Shown here piece after piece: positions 27,792-50,112 of a stretch of 64,000 nt of DNA. The notes below the pieces were generated by a model that had not been told where the DNA came from, made no database searches, and saw only the letters and a program-made list of their open reading frames with translations. Made by a program: the position numbers and the translations under genes. Source of the DNA: Metabacillus halosaccharovorans (GTDB lineage Bacteria; Bacillota; Bacilli; Bacillales; Bacillaceae). Each line of letters begins with the position of its first letter. Positions within the stretch are counted from its first letter, which is position 1. The stretch covers positions 2,090,290 through 2,154,289 of the forward strand of contig NZ_KV917372.1 in the NCBI RefSeq assembly GCF_002019635.1, written 5' to 3'.

Positions 27792-28283
27792 ATGGCCAAA
27801 GATAGTTCATTTGATATTGTATCAAAGATTGAGTTTCCGGAAGTGACGAACGCGATTAATATTGCAATGAAGGAAATAGCAACAAGATATGACTTCAAAG
27901 GTAGTAAAAGCAACATCTCATTAGAAAAAGAAGAGCTTGTTTTAGTTTCTGATGACGAGTATAAACTTGAGCAATTAAAAGATGTTCTTATTTCCAAATT
28001 AATTAAACGAAATGTACCAATTAAAAATATTTCGTATAAAAAAGTTGAGAATGCTTCAGGAGGGACTGTCCGTCAAAGAGCTGAACTCGTTTCAGGTATC
28101 GACAAAGATAACGCTAAAAAAATTAACAGCATTATTAAAGACAAAGGCTTAAAAGTAAAATCTCAAATCCAAGATGATCAGATCCGTGTTACAGGTAAAA
28201 GTCGTGACGAACTCCAACAGGTGATTGCCGCAATCAGAGAAGCTGATTTACCAATCGATGTACAATTTATTAATTACAGGTAA
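27792..28283 (+). CDS. yitK: YajQ family (UPF0234) nucleotide-binding protein
   Basis: The 163-residue protein [20 protein letters not shown] has the family motifs [39 protein letters not shown] and [20 protein letters not shown]. YajQ proteins bind nucleotides or RNA; a cyclic-di-GMP role is reported in Xanthomonas. Its ribosome site is GGAGGATAATT and its stop is followed by a terminator. In B. subtilis the equivalent is yitK, next to yitL and yitJ. Confidence 0.95.
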
Positions 28284-28329: not shown

Positions 28330-28523
28330 ACCTCAAATATTAAAAGCATAATTTCCTTCTCCCTTCATATTTTTATAAAGGCTCCAACAAAACATCAACC
28401 AAAAACTTCCACATACTAAGTAAAATTTGACAAACTGTTAATTTACTATTGATATTTTTCTAAATATTAGATAAATTAGTTGTAATACTTTTTCACACGT
28501 TAAAGGTTATATGAAAATTTCAT

Positions 28524-28946
28524 ATCTTATCAAGAGAAGCAGAGGGACTGGCCCTATGAAGCTTCAGCAACCGGTCAATAACGAGTGAAGTCTGGTGTAC
28601 AATGATTGACTAAGTCAAGAACACTGAACTAGGTTATTTTCTTTTAGCACAGAAAAGTAAATAAAAATGAATCGAACAAAGCGCTCTTGTTTGTTCGAAG
28701 CATTTTTATTTATTTTTCCAAGGCTTGCTATTCAAGCCGCAGCAAGCGCACGCTTGCTGTGCTAAAAGAAAATACGCATCACTATTTAAGAAGTGTTTTA
28801 GTCTTACCCGTCAATCAATTCCCCACACCCCACCAAGACTTCTGCGAGTGCCAAGGTGCTAATTCCAGCTAAGCATGTAAGATGCTTGAAAGATAAGGAG
28901 AAGCTAATAATGATTAAAGCCTTCTTCCTAAAGAAGGCTTTTTTAA
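28524..28946 (+). promoter_or_regulatory. SAM-I (S-box) riboswitch with very long P3, plus terminator
   Basis: The conserved core is present in two halves. The 5' half (28526-28574) holds CTTATCAAGAGA, GAGGGACTGGCCC and TTCAGCAACCGG. The 3' half (28851-28897) holds CCAAGGTGCTAATTCCAGC, a P4 hairpin (AAGCATGTAAGATGCTT) and the P1 partner GATAAG. Between them are about 276 bases, where normal S-boxes have a short P3. The P3 arms pair over 28587-28625 and 28792-28842. The platform is a strong terminator (28916-28941, then Ts); GGAGAAG at 28897-28903 can pair with CTTCTTCC as antiterminator. High SAM should stop transcription of yitJ and metH. Confidence 0.93.
28635..28774. repeat. MITE-like inverted-repeat element in the riboswitch P3 arm
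   Basis: Bases 28635-28652 and 28757-28774 are perfect 18-bp inverted repeats, beginning TATTTTCTTTTAGCAC. The element therefore begins and ends with TA, as expected for elements that duplicate a TA target. Inside are an AT-rich hairpin (28653-28669 with 28701-28717, with CGAACAAA/TTTGTTCG nested) followed by T-runs, and two small GC-rich hairpins (28722-28738 and 28742-28757). No coding capacity. It could alternatively be a native tip of the P3 arm. Confidence 0.65.
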
Positions 28947-29004
28947 TTTCCTTTATCCAAAACAATGTTTACCTATTAATCATATAGATCGGAGGCTTCA
29001 TTCA

Positions 29005-30858
29005 ATGAGTTTTTTAGAGGATTTAAAACATAACATTTTAATTGGTGACGGTGCGATGGGTACAATGCTTTATGCCCATGGTGTTGATCGTTGCTTTGAA
29101 GAATTGAATCTATCAAGACCTGAGGATGTCCTTGCTGTTCATCAAGCGTATATAGAAGCTGGCGCAAACTTAATTCAAACAAACACATATGGTGCTAATG
29201 ATATCAAGCTTTCAAGATATGGATTAGAGGATGAAATCAGACAAATTAACAAAAAAGCAGTTGAAATTGCCAAAAAAGCTGCTGATCAATCCACATATGT
29301 ATTTGGCACAATTGGCGGAGTCAGATCTTTTAAAAAGAGTGCACATAGTATTGAAGAAGTGAAACGAAATTTTAGAGAGCAGCTCTTCCTCCTTCTAAAC
29401 GAAGATGTAGATGGTCTTCTTCTTGAAACCTATTATGATATGGAAGAAATGAAAACAGTTCTTCAAATTGCCCGCAAGGAAACGAACAAGCCCATTATTG
29501 CAAATGTTTCCCTTCATGAAGCCGGTGTCCTGCAGGATGGAACGTCAGTGAAAAATGGTCTCACTCTTCTTGAAGACCTTGGTGCAAATGTTGTTGGCTT
29601 AAACTGTCGCTTAGGTCCTTACCATATGATTCAATCTTTAGAAGAGGTTCCAATACCAAATGAGGCCTATTTATCTGTTTTTCCAAACAGCAGCTTACCT
29701 GCACTAATTGAAGGGAATCTTGTCTATGAATCTGATGAAACGTATTTCAAGGAAAGTGCTCTAAAATTCAGAGATCAAGGTGTGAGATTAATAGGCGGAT
29801 GCTGTGGAACTACACCTAGGCATATTAAAGCAATGGCTGAAGCAGTATCAAACTTATCCCCTGTTACAACAAAACAGGTTAAAGTTCCTGCAACATCTCA
29901 ACTGCATGTACAGGAACATCAAGTCACATCTCCAACTCCGCTTGAGGATATTGTTCAAGAGAGACGTTCTGTTATTGTCGAATTAGATCCCCCTAAAAAA
30001 CTGGGTATGGAGAAATTCCTTGAAGGTGCAGAAGCCCTTCACAATGCAGGAATCGATGCTTTAACACTTGCAGATAACTCATTGGCTTCACCAAGAATTA
30101 GTAACTTAGCTGCCGGAATCTTAGCAAAAGAAAAAACCGGGGCAAGAACATTAATTCATATTACATGCCGTGATCGGAATTTAATTGGTCTTCAATCACA
30201 TCTCATGGGCCTACACTCACTTGGGATGTCAGATATATTAGCCATCACAGGTGATCCATCTAAAATTGGTGATTTCCCAGGGGCTACATCTGTATATGAT
30301 GTGTCATCATTTGACCTTATCAGTTTAATTAAACAATTTAATAAAGGTGTATCCTATTCCGGAAAACCGCTTGGACAACAAACAAACTTCTCTGTAGCGG
30401 CAGCATTCAACCCTAATGTACGTCACTTAGATAAAGCTGTAGTCAGACTAGAAAAGAAAATTGCTCATGGTGCTGATTACTTTATTTCTCAGCCACTATA
30501 CTCAAATCAGCAAATTATCGATGTATATGAAGCAACACGAAACTTGCAAGCTCCGATTTATATCGGGATTATGCCATTAACATCAAGCCGAAATGCCGAA
30601 TTTATTCATAATGAAATTCCTGGTATTAAACTATCTGACTCTATTCGTGAAAAAATGGCTTCAGCCGGATCAGATAAAGAACAGGCACGCCAAGAAGGCC
30701 TTGCCATTGCAAAAGATTTAATTGATACAGCCTTCGAACTGTTCAATGGTATTTATTTAATTACACCGTTTTTACAATACGACCTTACAGTGGAGTTAAC
30801 AAATTACATCCATGAAAAGGAAAAACAGCGAGCTGAAAGGAAGATTACACATGTGTAG
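29005..30858 (+). CDS. yitJ: Bifunctional homocysteine S-methyltransferase / methylenetetrahydrofolate reductase (YitJ)
   Basis: The first ~300 residues form a homocysteine methyltransferase domain with the zinc cysteines in [11 protein letters not shown] and [13 protein letters not shown]. The rest (from about residue 315) is a MetF-like flavin TIM barrel: [53 protein letters not shown]. It should reduce methylene-THF to methyl-THF and may move methyl groups to homocysteine. The 617-residue size is normal. It is preceded by the SAM riboswitch and overlaps metH by eight bases. Confidence 0.95.
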
Positions 30859-33800
30859 CATCAACAAAGAGCTAGAAAAACGAATCCTTGTCCTGGATGG
30901 TGCGATGGGGACAATGATTCAAGCAGCAAACCTGTCTCCTGAAGATTTTGGCGGAGAAGATTATGATGGATGTAATGAATATCTTACATTGACTTCACCA
31001 AAGACGATTGAAACCATTCACGAAGCCTATTTGGAAGCCGGATCAGATATTATCTCTACCAATACCTTTGGGGCTACAAGTCTTGTTTTGGATGAGTATG
31101 ATCTAGGACGCCTGGCTTTAGAGTTAAACATTGAATCTGCTAAAATAGCGAAACGTGCCGCTGAAAAATACTCAACACCTGAAAAGCCCAGATATGTCGC
31201 AGGTGCGATGGGACCAACAACCAAAACACTTTCAGTTACAGGTGGAACAACATTTGATACATTAGTCGAAAATTATGAAGAACAAGCAAGAGGCTTAATC
31301 ATAGGAGGAGCAGATTTGCTCCTTCTCGAAACAAGCCAGGATATGTTAAACGTTAAAGCTGGATTTTTAGGAATTAAAAAAGCCTTTGAAGACACAGGCA
31401 AGGAACTTCCCTTAATGATTTCCGGAACGATTGAACCTATGGGTACTACTCTGGCAGGTCAGGATATTGAAGCATTTTATGTATCATTAGAACATATGAA
31501 GCCACTTTCAGTCGGATTAAACTGTGCAACCGGACCTGAATTTATGACAGACCATATTCGTACACTTTCCGGTTTAGCTAATACAGCTGTTAGCTGTTAC
31601 CCGAATGCAGGCTTACCTGATGAAGAGGGAAATTATCATGAATCACCAGAATCACTCGCGAAAAAGCTTGTTGCTTTTGCAGAACAAGGCTGGCTGAATC
31701 TAATTGGCGGATGCTGTGGGACTACACCAGAACATATCCGTGCTATTACTGAAGCAGTTTCAACCATTACTCCACGAAAAATCGAAGAAGTCTCGACTGG
31801 TCACACAGTATCCGGAATCGATGCCCTACTTTACGAAGATGGAATGCGGCCTTTATTCGTTGGTGAACGTACAAATGTTATTGGTTCCCGTAAATTTAAA
31901 CGTCTGATTGCAGAAGGCAAAATAGAGGAAGCATCTGAGATAGCAAGAGCACAAGTCAAAAGTGGTGCCCATGTTATCGATATTTGCCTGGCTGACCCCG
32001 ATAGGGATGAGCTTGAAGATATGGAAGTATTCATACAAGAGGTTGTGAAAAAAGTCAAAGCTCCACTTGTTATTGACTCCACAGATGAGAAAGTAATTGA
32101 ACGGGCGCTAAAATACTCTCAAGGTAAGGCGATCATTAACTCTATTAACCTTGAGGATGGCGAAGAGCGTTTTGATGCAATCGTTCCGCTTGTCAAAAAA
32201 TACGGTGGCGCATTAGTCGTTGGAACAATAGATGAAGTGGGAATGGCCCTAACAGCAGAAAAGAAACTTGAAGTGGCGATTCGCTCTCACGACCTTCTCG
32301 TCAAAAAGCATGGACTAAAGCCGAGTGATTTGATATTTGATCCACTTGTATTCCCGGTAGGAACCGGTGACGAGCAATATATTGGTTCGGCAAATGAAAC
32401 TGTTCGCGGTATCCAGCTTATTAAAGAAAAATTACCTGAATGCTTAACGATATTAGGCGTTAGTAATGTTTCTTTCGGACTTCCTCCTGTTGGACGCGAA
32501 GTTCTGAATGCTGTTTACTTGTACCACTGTACACAGGCCGGGCTCGATTATGCAATTGTTAACACGGAAAAATTAGAAAGATTTGCTTCGATTCCTAAAG
32601 AAGAAATACAAATGGCTGAAGATCTTTTATTTAAAACAACAGACGAATCATTGGCTAAATTTACTGCCTTCTACCGCGGTAAGAAAAAAGAAGACAAAAA
32701 GCCTCTTCAAAACCTTACCTTGGAAGAAAGATTAGCAAGCTATATCGTAGAAGGAACAAAAGAAGGCCTTATTCCAGATTTAGAGTTAGCATTAAAAAAA
32801 TATCCTGTGCCTCTTGATATCATTAACGGACCATTAATGGAAGGTATGGCTGAAGTCGGGGTATTATTCAATGATAACCAATTAATCGTTGCAGAGGTTC
32901 TCCAAAGTGCCGAGGTCATGAAAGCATCTGTTTCCTATCTCGAGCAATTCATGGAAAAACGCGATGATAGCGGAAAAGGTAAAATCCTTCTTGCTACAGT
33001 AAAAGGTGATGTACATGATATCGGTAAAAATCTGGTTGATATTATTTTAAGTAATAATGGCTATAGAGTAATCGACCTTGGCATCAAAGTAACACCACAA
33101 ACATTAATTCAAGCTGTAAAGGATGAAAAACCGGATCTTATCGGTTTATCCGGCTTACTTGTTAAATCAGCACAGCAAATGGTGATCACTGCTCAGGACT
33201 TACACAAAGCAAACTGTGAGTTACCAATTTTGGTTGGTGGTGCAGCATTATCACGGAAATTCACGAGAATGAAAATTGCACCTGAATATAACGGTCCTGT
33301 TGTCTATGCAAAGGATGCAATGGATGGCTTATCTTTAGCTAATCAATTACGCACAACACCTGAAATATTCGCTGCAAAAGAAGCTGCCGTAACAGAAGAG
33401 GCAAAACTAAAGAACTCTCAAGCACAAAGTGTTACGGAACTACTAATCAAGCGTGGAACTGTAAATGAGGCGCCAATTTTTACGCCTGTTGATACAAAGC
33501 GTCATATACTCAAGGATATCTCCCTTTCCCACATTATTCCTTATGTAAATATGCAAATGCTTATCGGTCATCATCTGGGATTAAAAGGGAAAATCAAGGA
33601 ATTAGTCCAAAAGAAAGACCCTAAAGCGGTCGAGCTTGTTGAATTGATACAGGAGCTTTTAAAAGATGGAGCCAAACAGAAATGGTTCAAACCAGCTGCG
33701 GTCTATCAATTTTTCCCATCGTATAGTGATGGAAATAAGCTTCATATCCTTGATCCGGAAAATACAGATAGAATCGTACAAACTTTTGATTTTCCAAGAC

Positions 33801-34273
33801 AGGAGAAACTGCCGCATCGCTGTATTTCCGACTATGTTCGTCCGAAACAAAAAGACGGATTTGACTATGTGGCCATGTTTGCCGTTACTGCAGGAAGTCA
33901 AATTCGTGAGCTTGCCCAAGGATTTAAAGAACAAGGTGACTATTTAAAGAGTCACGCTGTTCAGGCACTTGCTTTGGAGCTTGCAGAAGGGTTAGCTGAA
34001 CGTACTCATCAACTCATTCGTGACCGCTGGGGCTTCCCTGATGCACCAGATTTCACAATGGACCAGCGCTTCTCAGCCAAATACCAAGGACAGCGCTACT
34101 CCTTTGGATATCCGGCTTGTCCTGATCTTGAAGATCAAGAAAAGTTATTTAACCTTATTCGTCCAGAGGACATCGGCATTCAGCTAACAGAAGGTTTCAT
34201 GATGGAACCAGAAGCATCGGTAACAGCCATAGTTGTTGCACATCCGGATGCGAAATATTTTAATGTTATGTAA
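30851..34273 (+). CDS. metH: Cobalamin-dependent methionine synthase (MetH)
   Basis: The 1140-residue protein has all four modules. The homocysteine domain (about 1-310) shows [10 protein letters not shown] and [13 protein letters not shown]. The folate domain (about 330-600) opens [20 protein letters not shown]. The B12 domain (about 640-870) has [19 protein letters not shown], whose histidine binds cobalt. The SAM-dependent activation domain (to the end) contains [14 protein letters not shown] choose the ATG at 30851 (MCSINKEL), seven bases after AAAGGAAG; an in-frame ATG at 30812 lies inside yitJ. It shares the riboswitch of yitJ and needs cobalamin. Confidence 0.97.
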
Positions 34274-49883: not shown

Positions 49884-50112
49884 AAAAGCGCAAGCGCCTT
49901 GGTCATCGCCGTACAAACTGGAGGAGCATCGACTAAAGATTTAGGAAACACGGTAAGCGAAGCGAATCGATGTTGACTTAACGTAGGGAGATGATCTGAA
50001 GTTTGATAGGCGATAGGCGCTGGCAGTCAAAACCCGCGACGTCCTGTCGCATTGACTGCACTTGCACATCCTGTGCTTCGGAGCTAGACACTAAAACTAA
50101 GTACAAAATTCT
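49884..50112. repeat. Long dispersed GCGC-ended repeat after yisN
   Basis: It starts AGAAAAGCGCAAGCGCCTTG at the yisN stop and ends CTTCGGAGCTAGACAC, then ACTAAGTAC. The first half (GGAAACACGGTAAGCG, TCGATGTTGACTTAACGTA) matches the duplicated unit at 19651. The second half (GGCGCTGGCAGTC, CGCGACGTCC, GCACTTGCAC) matches the element in the gerP locus at 52420. It is therefore a composite of modules. Confidence 0.87.

Follow-up and report, generated by a model that had tools for sequence, protein, structure and literature searches.

SAM-I (S-box) riboswitches feature a kink-turn in P2 and a pseudoknot between the P2 loop and J3/4, and the peripheral arms of riboswitches are usually regarded as spacers that tolerate filler. 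In Listeria, SreA and SreB are trans-acting SAM riboswitches, SreA acting on prfA; the likeness to the leader described here is that, by our prediction, a SAM-terminated leader could act as a separate RNA. SreA is not known to have a tip domain of the present kind. The closest described system is Rfam family RF00162 as found in Bacillus subtilis yitJ, with which the locus shares the P1-P4 order, the core letters, the terminator platform, and the downstream methionine/SAM genes. It differs from an ordinary SAM-I riboswitch in its P3, which is 293 nt long and carries a conserved four-way-junction end, compared with roughly 30-50 nt (the ordinary S-box spans we measured were 47-51).

Two further systems invite comparison. 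Riboswitch ‘variable insertions’ are described by Barrick and Breaker (2007, PMC2258182) as long nonconserved insertions; the Metabacillus arm resembles them in being a large, self-folding peripheral insertion that leaves the core intact, but differs in that its tip is conserved in both sequence and structure and is common to several riboswitches. The spermidine riboswitch, according to PMC10853860, is a SAM-I variant with changed ligand-contacting letters. Here, too, a SAM-I scaffold has been altered within a bacterial lineage, but in Metabacillus the core is ordinary and the periphery has changed. A literature search, covering little of the subscription literature, found no earlier conserved P3 domain in SAM-I.

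The S-box leader and its P3 arm

The window analyzed here is a stretch of 64,000 nucleotides of Metabacillus halosaccharovorans DNA (contig NZ_KV917372.1, positions 2,090,290 to 2,154,289). A SAM-I riboswitch with its terminator occupies positions 28525-28941 of the window, upstream of a yitJ-type gene followed by metH. The features of the locus are as follows.

28427-28456, + strand: promoter-like site (TTGACA, 18, GATATT), by consensus only (10/12), ~70 nt 5' of the aptamer
28525-28531, + strand: P1 5' strand, partner 28892-28898 (sequence reading, Rfam alignment)
28532-28566, + strand: J1/2 and P2 of the SAM-I aptamer (Rfam alignment; near-identical in 21 relatives)
28567-28575, + strand: P3 base, 5' strand, pairing with 28850-28859 (fold, pair probabilities 0.76-0.94)
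28582-28587, + strand: CGAGTG, a nearly invariant motif in the 5' strand of the P3-proximal internal loop, with its repeat at 28845-28850 in the 3' strand (17-sequence P3 alignment)
28587-28634, + strand: P3 rod, 5' strand, with helices at 28587-28597, 28603-28614, and 28618-28625 (fold, duplex versus shuffles)
28635-28774, + strand: tip domain, a closing stem and three hairpins forming a four-way junction (fold, covariation, homologues)
28635-28648, + strand: tip closing stem, 5' strand, partner 28761-28774 (mean pair probability 0.99; 6/16 pairs changed on both sides)
28652-28718, + strand: hairpin A, 18 + 9 pairs (fold; 10/18 pairs of the lower stem changed on both sides)
28722-28738, + strand: hairpin B (GGCTTG/CAAGCC), its helix invariant among yitJ and metI copies
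28742-28757, + strand: hairpin C (GCAAGC/GCTTGC), present in metK copies too
28775-28845, + strand: P3 rod, 3' strand (fold)
28850-28898, + strand: aptamer 3' half, i.e., the 3' strand of the P3 base, J3/4, P4 (28871-28876/28882-28887), and the P1 3' strand at 28892-28898 (sequence, 21 relatives)
28895-28931, + strand: candidate antiterminator, in which the terminator 5' arm pairs with the P1 3' region (28881-28930 folds at -7.5 kcal/mol)
28916-28947, + strand: intrinsic terminator, 11 pairs and T-run
29005-30858, + strand: bifunctional homocysteine S-methyltransferase/methylenetetrahydrofolate reductase, yitJ type (NCBIfam NF006396, 890 bits, cut-off 453)
30812-34273, + strand: methionine synthase metH, next in the operon (NCBIfam TIGR02082, 1232 bits, cut-off 1010.85)

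Directly upstream of the leader lies a YajQ-family gene (27792-28280; NF003819, 208.9 bits), and elsewhere in the window, at 50012-50077, there is a Bacillaceae-1 RNA (RF01690, 37.2 bits, cut-off 35).

The RF00162 (SAM) model matches positions 28524-28621 at 46.5 bits, slightly above the gathering score of 44.4. The 5' half agrees with the model letter by letter, after which the model closes wrongly, at 28621, on fortuitous matches within the arm. Thus, scoring by the Rfam SAM-I model, which a preliminary description made from the sequence had proposed as a check, puts the leader over the cut-off without closing the whole aptamer. Read from the sequence and compared with 21 relatives, the true aptamer 3' half comprises CCAAGGTGCTAATTCC, P4, and GATAAGG at 28851-28898. 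The RF00162 core (P1, J1/2, P2; P3 3' strand, J3/4, P4, P1) is therefore represented in full, with the 5' half recognized by the Rfam alignment and the 3' half by the relatives, including those with a short P3, and the sequence of P2 is ordinary. Both S-box halves and the normal terminator (28916-28941) that had been described at the outset are thus in place. Computation also predicts a mutually exclusive terminator and antiterminator, formed by pairing of the P1 3' region with the terminator 5' arm, and the NF006396 gene and metH downstream point to control of methionine/SAM genes. Judged by the sequence and pairing of both halves, the terminator, the downstream gene, and relatives with a shorter P3, the feature is a SAM-I riboswitch, and SAM-dependent termination of the ordinary S-box kind is very probable.

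What sets this leader apart is the P3 arm, which spans 293 nt (28567-28859). The preliminary description was right about the enlargement, whereas its size of about 276 bases falls short. The leader (28524-28890) folds at -126.5 kcal/mol, compared with a mean of -82 (sd 4.24) for shuffled sequences (z -10.5; none of 100 shuffles as low), which bears out the folding check suggested earlier. The three pairings listed there all belong to the minimum-energy fold of P3, exactly where they had been placed: 28587-28593/28836-28842, with a mean probability of 0.96, accompanied by 28594-28597/28831-28834 (0.55); 28603-28610/28810-28817 (0.98); and 28618-28625/28792-28799 (0.97).

From base to end, the fold divides the arm into four zones: the P3 base; an internal loop bearing CGAGTG on each strand; a rod interrupted by internal loops, the largest being 28598-28602/28818-28830; and the tip. 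The arm had been called a continuous rod, and it is indeed closed and mostly paired; the internal loops break strict continuity. The CGAGTG on the two strands of the basal loop (28582-28587 and 28845-28850) is nearly invariant across yitJ and metI arms, and the loop is possibly a structured one. The tip (28635-28774, ~140 nt), which agrees with the earlier expectation of a separate structure at the end of P3, consists of a 14-pair stem that closes over hairpins A (18 + 9 pairs), B (6 pairs), and C. A direct view of the 17-row P3 alignment reveals a conserved base, a drifting rod, and a conserved tip. Duplexes of the two rod strands were compared with 200 shuffles: in 12 of 18 arms, at most three shuffles were as low, and the rods of two yitJ arms (G002 and G006) were no better than shuffles (53 and 62 of 200 as low); whole-P3 covariation of the rod was left out of the counts, the alignment being unreliable there.

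Distribution and conservation of the tip

In the window's own genome (G000), a search with the distal part of the arm turned up a single further good match (84% over 79 bases, E 2e-17), which is in another SAM-I leader, upstream of a metI-type gene (NF006095, 394.7 bits on a 222-residue fragment, below the full-length cut-off of 585). The metK S-box of this genome has a 247-base span that likewise contains a closing stem and three hairpins, a diverged copy of the tip with sequence kept in hairpin C; it scores 34.4 bits on RF00162, under the cut-off. Altogether, the genome has 10 SAM rows, three of them expanded (yitJ, metI, metK), two with spans of 49 and 51, and five that match the whole Rfam model in 105-145 bases.

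We extended the comparison to 21 Metabacillus genomes (e.g., niabensis, litoralis, bambusae, crassostreae, fastidiosus, and malikii), hereafter the genus. The tip was found by blastn in 15 of these genomes, and SAM-I halves flank it on both sides at all 24 loci examined; the remaining six of the 30 blastn rows are opposite-strand matches or fragments of the same places. A covariance model of the tip built from 18 sequences (R1) had matches in 18 of the 80 family genomes searched, each of them a member of the genus, and in none of the 59 family genomes outside it. The 56 rows of this search correspond to 31 places (grouped by hand, 25 rows being the opposite strand of the same palindrome), every one of which is an S-box P3 arm of yitJ, metI, or metK. 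With its strict filters, the genome search passed over three metK copies (in G000, G003, and G019) that reach 54.7, 59.2, and 57.6 bits, respectively, when compared directly with R1. In the order, four of 397 genomes matched, namely the window's own and three with weak matches (E 0.004-0.009) that, on inspection, are terminator-like hairpins with no S-box around. Similarly, a pattern for hairpin C hit 17 places in the 21 genomes, 16 of them inside S-box P3 arms (reversed control, 0), and all 13 places hit by a hairpin B pattern lie within R1 tips (control, 0). The presence of the same arm in independent assemblies of relatives, as the proposed comparison of leaders brought out, rules out misassembly.

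Beyond chromosomal leaders, the tip was unmatched in a plasmid search, the exact core of hairpin A was absent from IMG/VR, and a phage search with the whole leader returned two records whose match is confined to the aptamer part. Rfam families searched in the tip at E up to 10 gave chance-level matches only, and a tRNA-like match was not found, ruling out a known Rfam domain and a tRNA-like element.

Several lines of evidence speak to how the tip is maintained. In 18 aligned tips, 97.2% of cells hold standard pairs, and 17 of 55 pairs have changed on both sides. The covariation score is 0.227, compared with 0.081 for shuffled alignments (0/500 as high), and sliding the partners gives no more than 0.066. 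Helices B and C are almost without variation among these tips and are neutral as evidence of pairing; moreover, MAFFT does not correctly match hairpin C of the yitJ copies to that of the metI copies, which makes the helix C counts weak. The kind of mismatch tolerated is also informative, since RNA accepts G-U, whose counterpart on the opposite DNA strand is A-C. A model-fitted alignment of 33 tips, which may lean towards the model, has G-U outnumbering A-C by 28:6 distinct changes and 43:11 cells (p 0.0002; 25 opposite-strand or split rows of 58 were dropped). The MAFFT alignment gives 11:4 distinct changes and 13:8 cells, or 10:2 and 12:3, respectively, without four frayed or misaligned pairs. 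Strand-biased mutation could contribute to this excess.

Between species, tips are 85-91% identical (gaps excluded, and partly reflecting transfer, given the exchange of P3 arms between species), compared with 37-42% at yitJ fourfold sites in eight of ten pairs and 63% and 90% in the two closest pairs. Non-coding flanks exceed fourfold sites as well (62-100% for the 100 bases upstream, 77-98% for the stretch before the gene), and the contrast is therefore weaker when drawn against them. Most conserved letters of the tip belong to helices and to the apical portion of A; the loops are short and variable. The tip, covarying and 85-91% identical, does not behave as a nonconserved insertion, a description that fits the middle of the rod. 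In all likelihood, the tip is selected as RNA. Because it is restricted to S-boxes, covaries, favors G-U, and is more alike than synonymous sites, we conclude from sequence comparison that the tip is a conserved RNA domain rather than filler, a mobile element, or a misassembly. The preliminary suggestions that the insertion is not random filler, and that the leader is an unusual expanded riboswitch, are strengthened by a conserved tip domain common to several S-boxes of the genus.

Variants and history of the arm

P3 spans range from 48 to 393 over 62 leaders. In the genus, 14/21 yitJ, 17/20 metI, and 10/21 metK leaders have a span (P2 to 3' half) above 200, leaving seven of 21 yitJ leaders with a span below 200; in other genera of the family, eight of nine yitJ leaders have spans of 40-135. 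Across the 21 yitJ leaders, the core, P4, and terminator are nearly constant while the P3 span goes from 63 to 393. Thus, the large arm is unnecessary for keeping the core, and SAM control is probably ordinary.

Arm length does affect annotation. Full leaders of relatives with a short P3 (G013, G014, and G018) score ~81 bits on RF00162, compared with 43-53 for expanded leaders, whose low score is thus due to the insertion. In 13 genomes, eight of 131 SAM rows fall under the Rfam cut-off, and seven of the eight are expanded leaders, so routine annotation misses such leaders. A separate SAM-like leader in another genome (L150, G008:C1:4232640; 31.6 bits) has a 3' half unrecognizable by the pattern used and precedes what we take, from its first residues, to be a gene resembling cysH; it may be a degenerate or variant S-box.

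Placed on the yitJ tree, the expanded metI arm occurs in most of the genus and is absent from the deepest branch (G009) and the outgroups measured, and the yitJ and metK arms are more scattered, having contracted or been replaced in places. By sequence, yitJ tips group together, as do metK tips, both apart from metI tips; thus, the copies follow the gene and not the genome. Arms have also moved between lineages: in three yitJ leaders (L031, L033, and L034; window 28585-28850), the P3 arm was exchanged and the surrounding elements were not. For instance, the window's genome and G019 are 100% identical in promoter, aptamer halves, and terminator and 88% in the P3 arm, and the P3 arms of G019 and G003 are 98% identical with yitJ fourfold sites at 60%. 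The simple reading of these sequences is recombination anchored in the aptamer halves.

Individual arms depart from the common architecture in several ways. Hairpin A of the G005 yitJ arm (L032:1048-1271) holds an extra insert of ~84 nt that folds as two hairpins. In the yitJ P3 of G012 and G008 (L039, L040), the tip is replaced by one other long hairpin (TTGTTTTCTATCCGCATC...), and tips are therefore replaceable. Hairpin A is lost, with B and C kept, from the metI leader of G012 (L143) and the metK leader of G015 (L172). Several species have no tip, which is thus dispensable.

Candidate roles of the tip

We lean, by a little, towards reading the locus as an ordinary SAM-I riboswitch whose P3 rod delivers a separate conserved RNA domain with a docking or processing role, as the sequences suggest. 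Bound SAM would hold P1 and allow the terminator to form, as in ordinary S-boxes, and the tip would not touch the termination decision. Instead, it would serve as a shared docking or processing site for methionine-gene leaders, the candidate partner being a protein or else a nuclease that is specific for double strands and acts on the long hairpin A, and would thereby decide what becomes of the terminated leader or the mRNA. The specific assignment of the tip as a docking or processing site, and not a sensor or trans-acting RNA, is tentative; we prefer it over a sensor or a base-pairing RNA because the conserved letters are in helices, the loops are short and variable, and the rod is variable. 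Evidence against it comes from the many leaders in which the tip is missing (the seven short yitJ arms) or replaced (G008 and G012), and the loss of hairpin A from the G015 metK and G012 metI leaders argues against a role resting on that hairpin.

The strongest rival, in our estimation doubtful, is tolerated growth: P3 would accept any self-contained hairpin, mutation by template switching would create palindromes and keep them perfect, selection would act only against misfolding of the aptamer, and the tip would have no job. This accounts well for the variable lengths and the losses, given spans of 48 to 393 in 62 leaders, hairpins that differ between lineages, the extra two-hairpin insert in the G005 hairpin A, and repeated loss of the tip on the tree; long riboswitch insertions have precedents in PMC2258182. 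Left unexplained are the conservation, the excess of G-U, and the fact that the tip is restricted to S-boxes. The insertions in PMC2258182 are termed nonconserved, whereas here there is hardly any change in helices B and C or the apical portion of A, and this near-invariance persists despite near-saturated synonymous sites. Repair of palindromes by mutation is blind to the strand, yet the mismatches favor G-U by 28:6, and one architecture recurs in three separate S-boxes.

A bolder proposal, which we deem unlikely, is that Metabacillus has equipped three methionine S-boxes with the tip as a further functional RNA domain, a receptor or effector through which one partner reads or processes all three leaders together.

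The remaining explanations fare worse. A second sensor, in which the tip would be an aptamer for another ligand, a tRNA, or a protein and the leader a two-input switch, is improbable. A conserved four-way junction on an arm whose base is part of the SAM pocket (PMC10853860) would suit such a device, but the Rfam and tRNA-like searches gave nothing above chance, the conserved letters are mostly helical and not in junctions or loops, and the rod between tip and aptamer varies in sequence and length. We give equally small weight to a trans-acting RNA, in which the SAM-terminated leader would be a stable small RNA and the tip would act on other RNAs or titrate a protein: termination would release a highly structured RNA of ~450 nt, with Listeria SreA acting on prfA as the precedent, but the tip has no conserved single-stranded seed, its loops being short and variable. 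A DNA-level element, with palindromes A, B, and C as operator sites of a DNA-binding protein or as cruciforms, is very improbable; B and C are indeed invariant perfect palindromes, but the other helices have an excess of G-U over A-C, and the sites fold as one nested structure with a covarying closing stem.

A mobile palindromic (MITE-like) element that landed in P3 is scarcely credible. The terminal inverted repeats, the inner palindromes, and the presence or absence between relatives recall such elements, but copies at unrelated places are not what we found, since all 31 R1 places in the genus are S-box P3 arms, as are 16 of 17 hairpin C places. Together with the lack of plasmid matches, the lack of an exact hairpin A match in IMG/VR, and the phage matches to the aptamer only, this led us to reject a MITE or phage cargo. 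A short leader peptide was rejected by eye and has a negligible chance of being correct: an ATG in hairpin A (28667) opens a frame, M-x-R-T-K-R-x-x-L-F-E-A-F, in several aligned copies, but this stops at once in L033, L034, and L073, the ATG is absent from one metI copy (L081) and from the metK copies, and no ribosome-binding site is seen upstream.

Returning to the reading of the tip as a separate domain carried by an ordinary SAM-I riboswitch, a well-studied riboswitch here has on its arm a domain whose conservation is comparable to that of parts of the aptamer, and a single genome has it in three leaders. Such a domain suggests a second job for this piece of RNA. Within the genus, the tip is known only from S-box arms. 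The long, short, swapped, and partly deleted arms form a natural deletion series around a near-constant aptamer and terminator, and the effect of a peripheral domain on a riboswitch is therefore directly testable. If a second domain has indeed been grafted onto these leaders, each would be a riboswitch whose rod ends in a second, built-in input or output.
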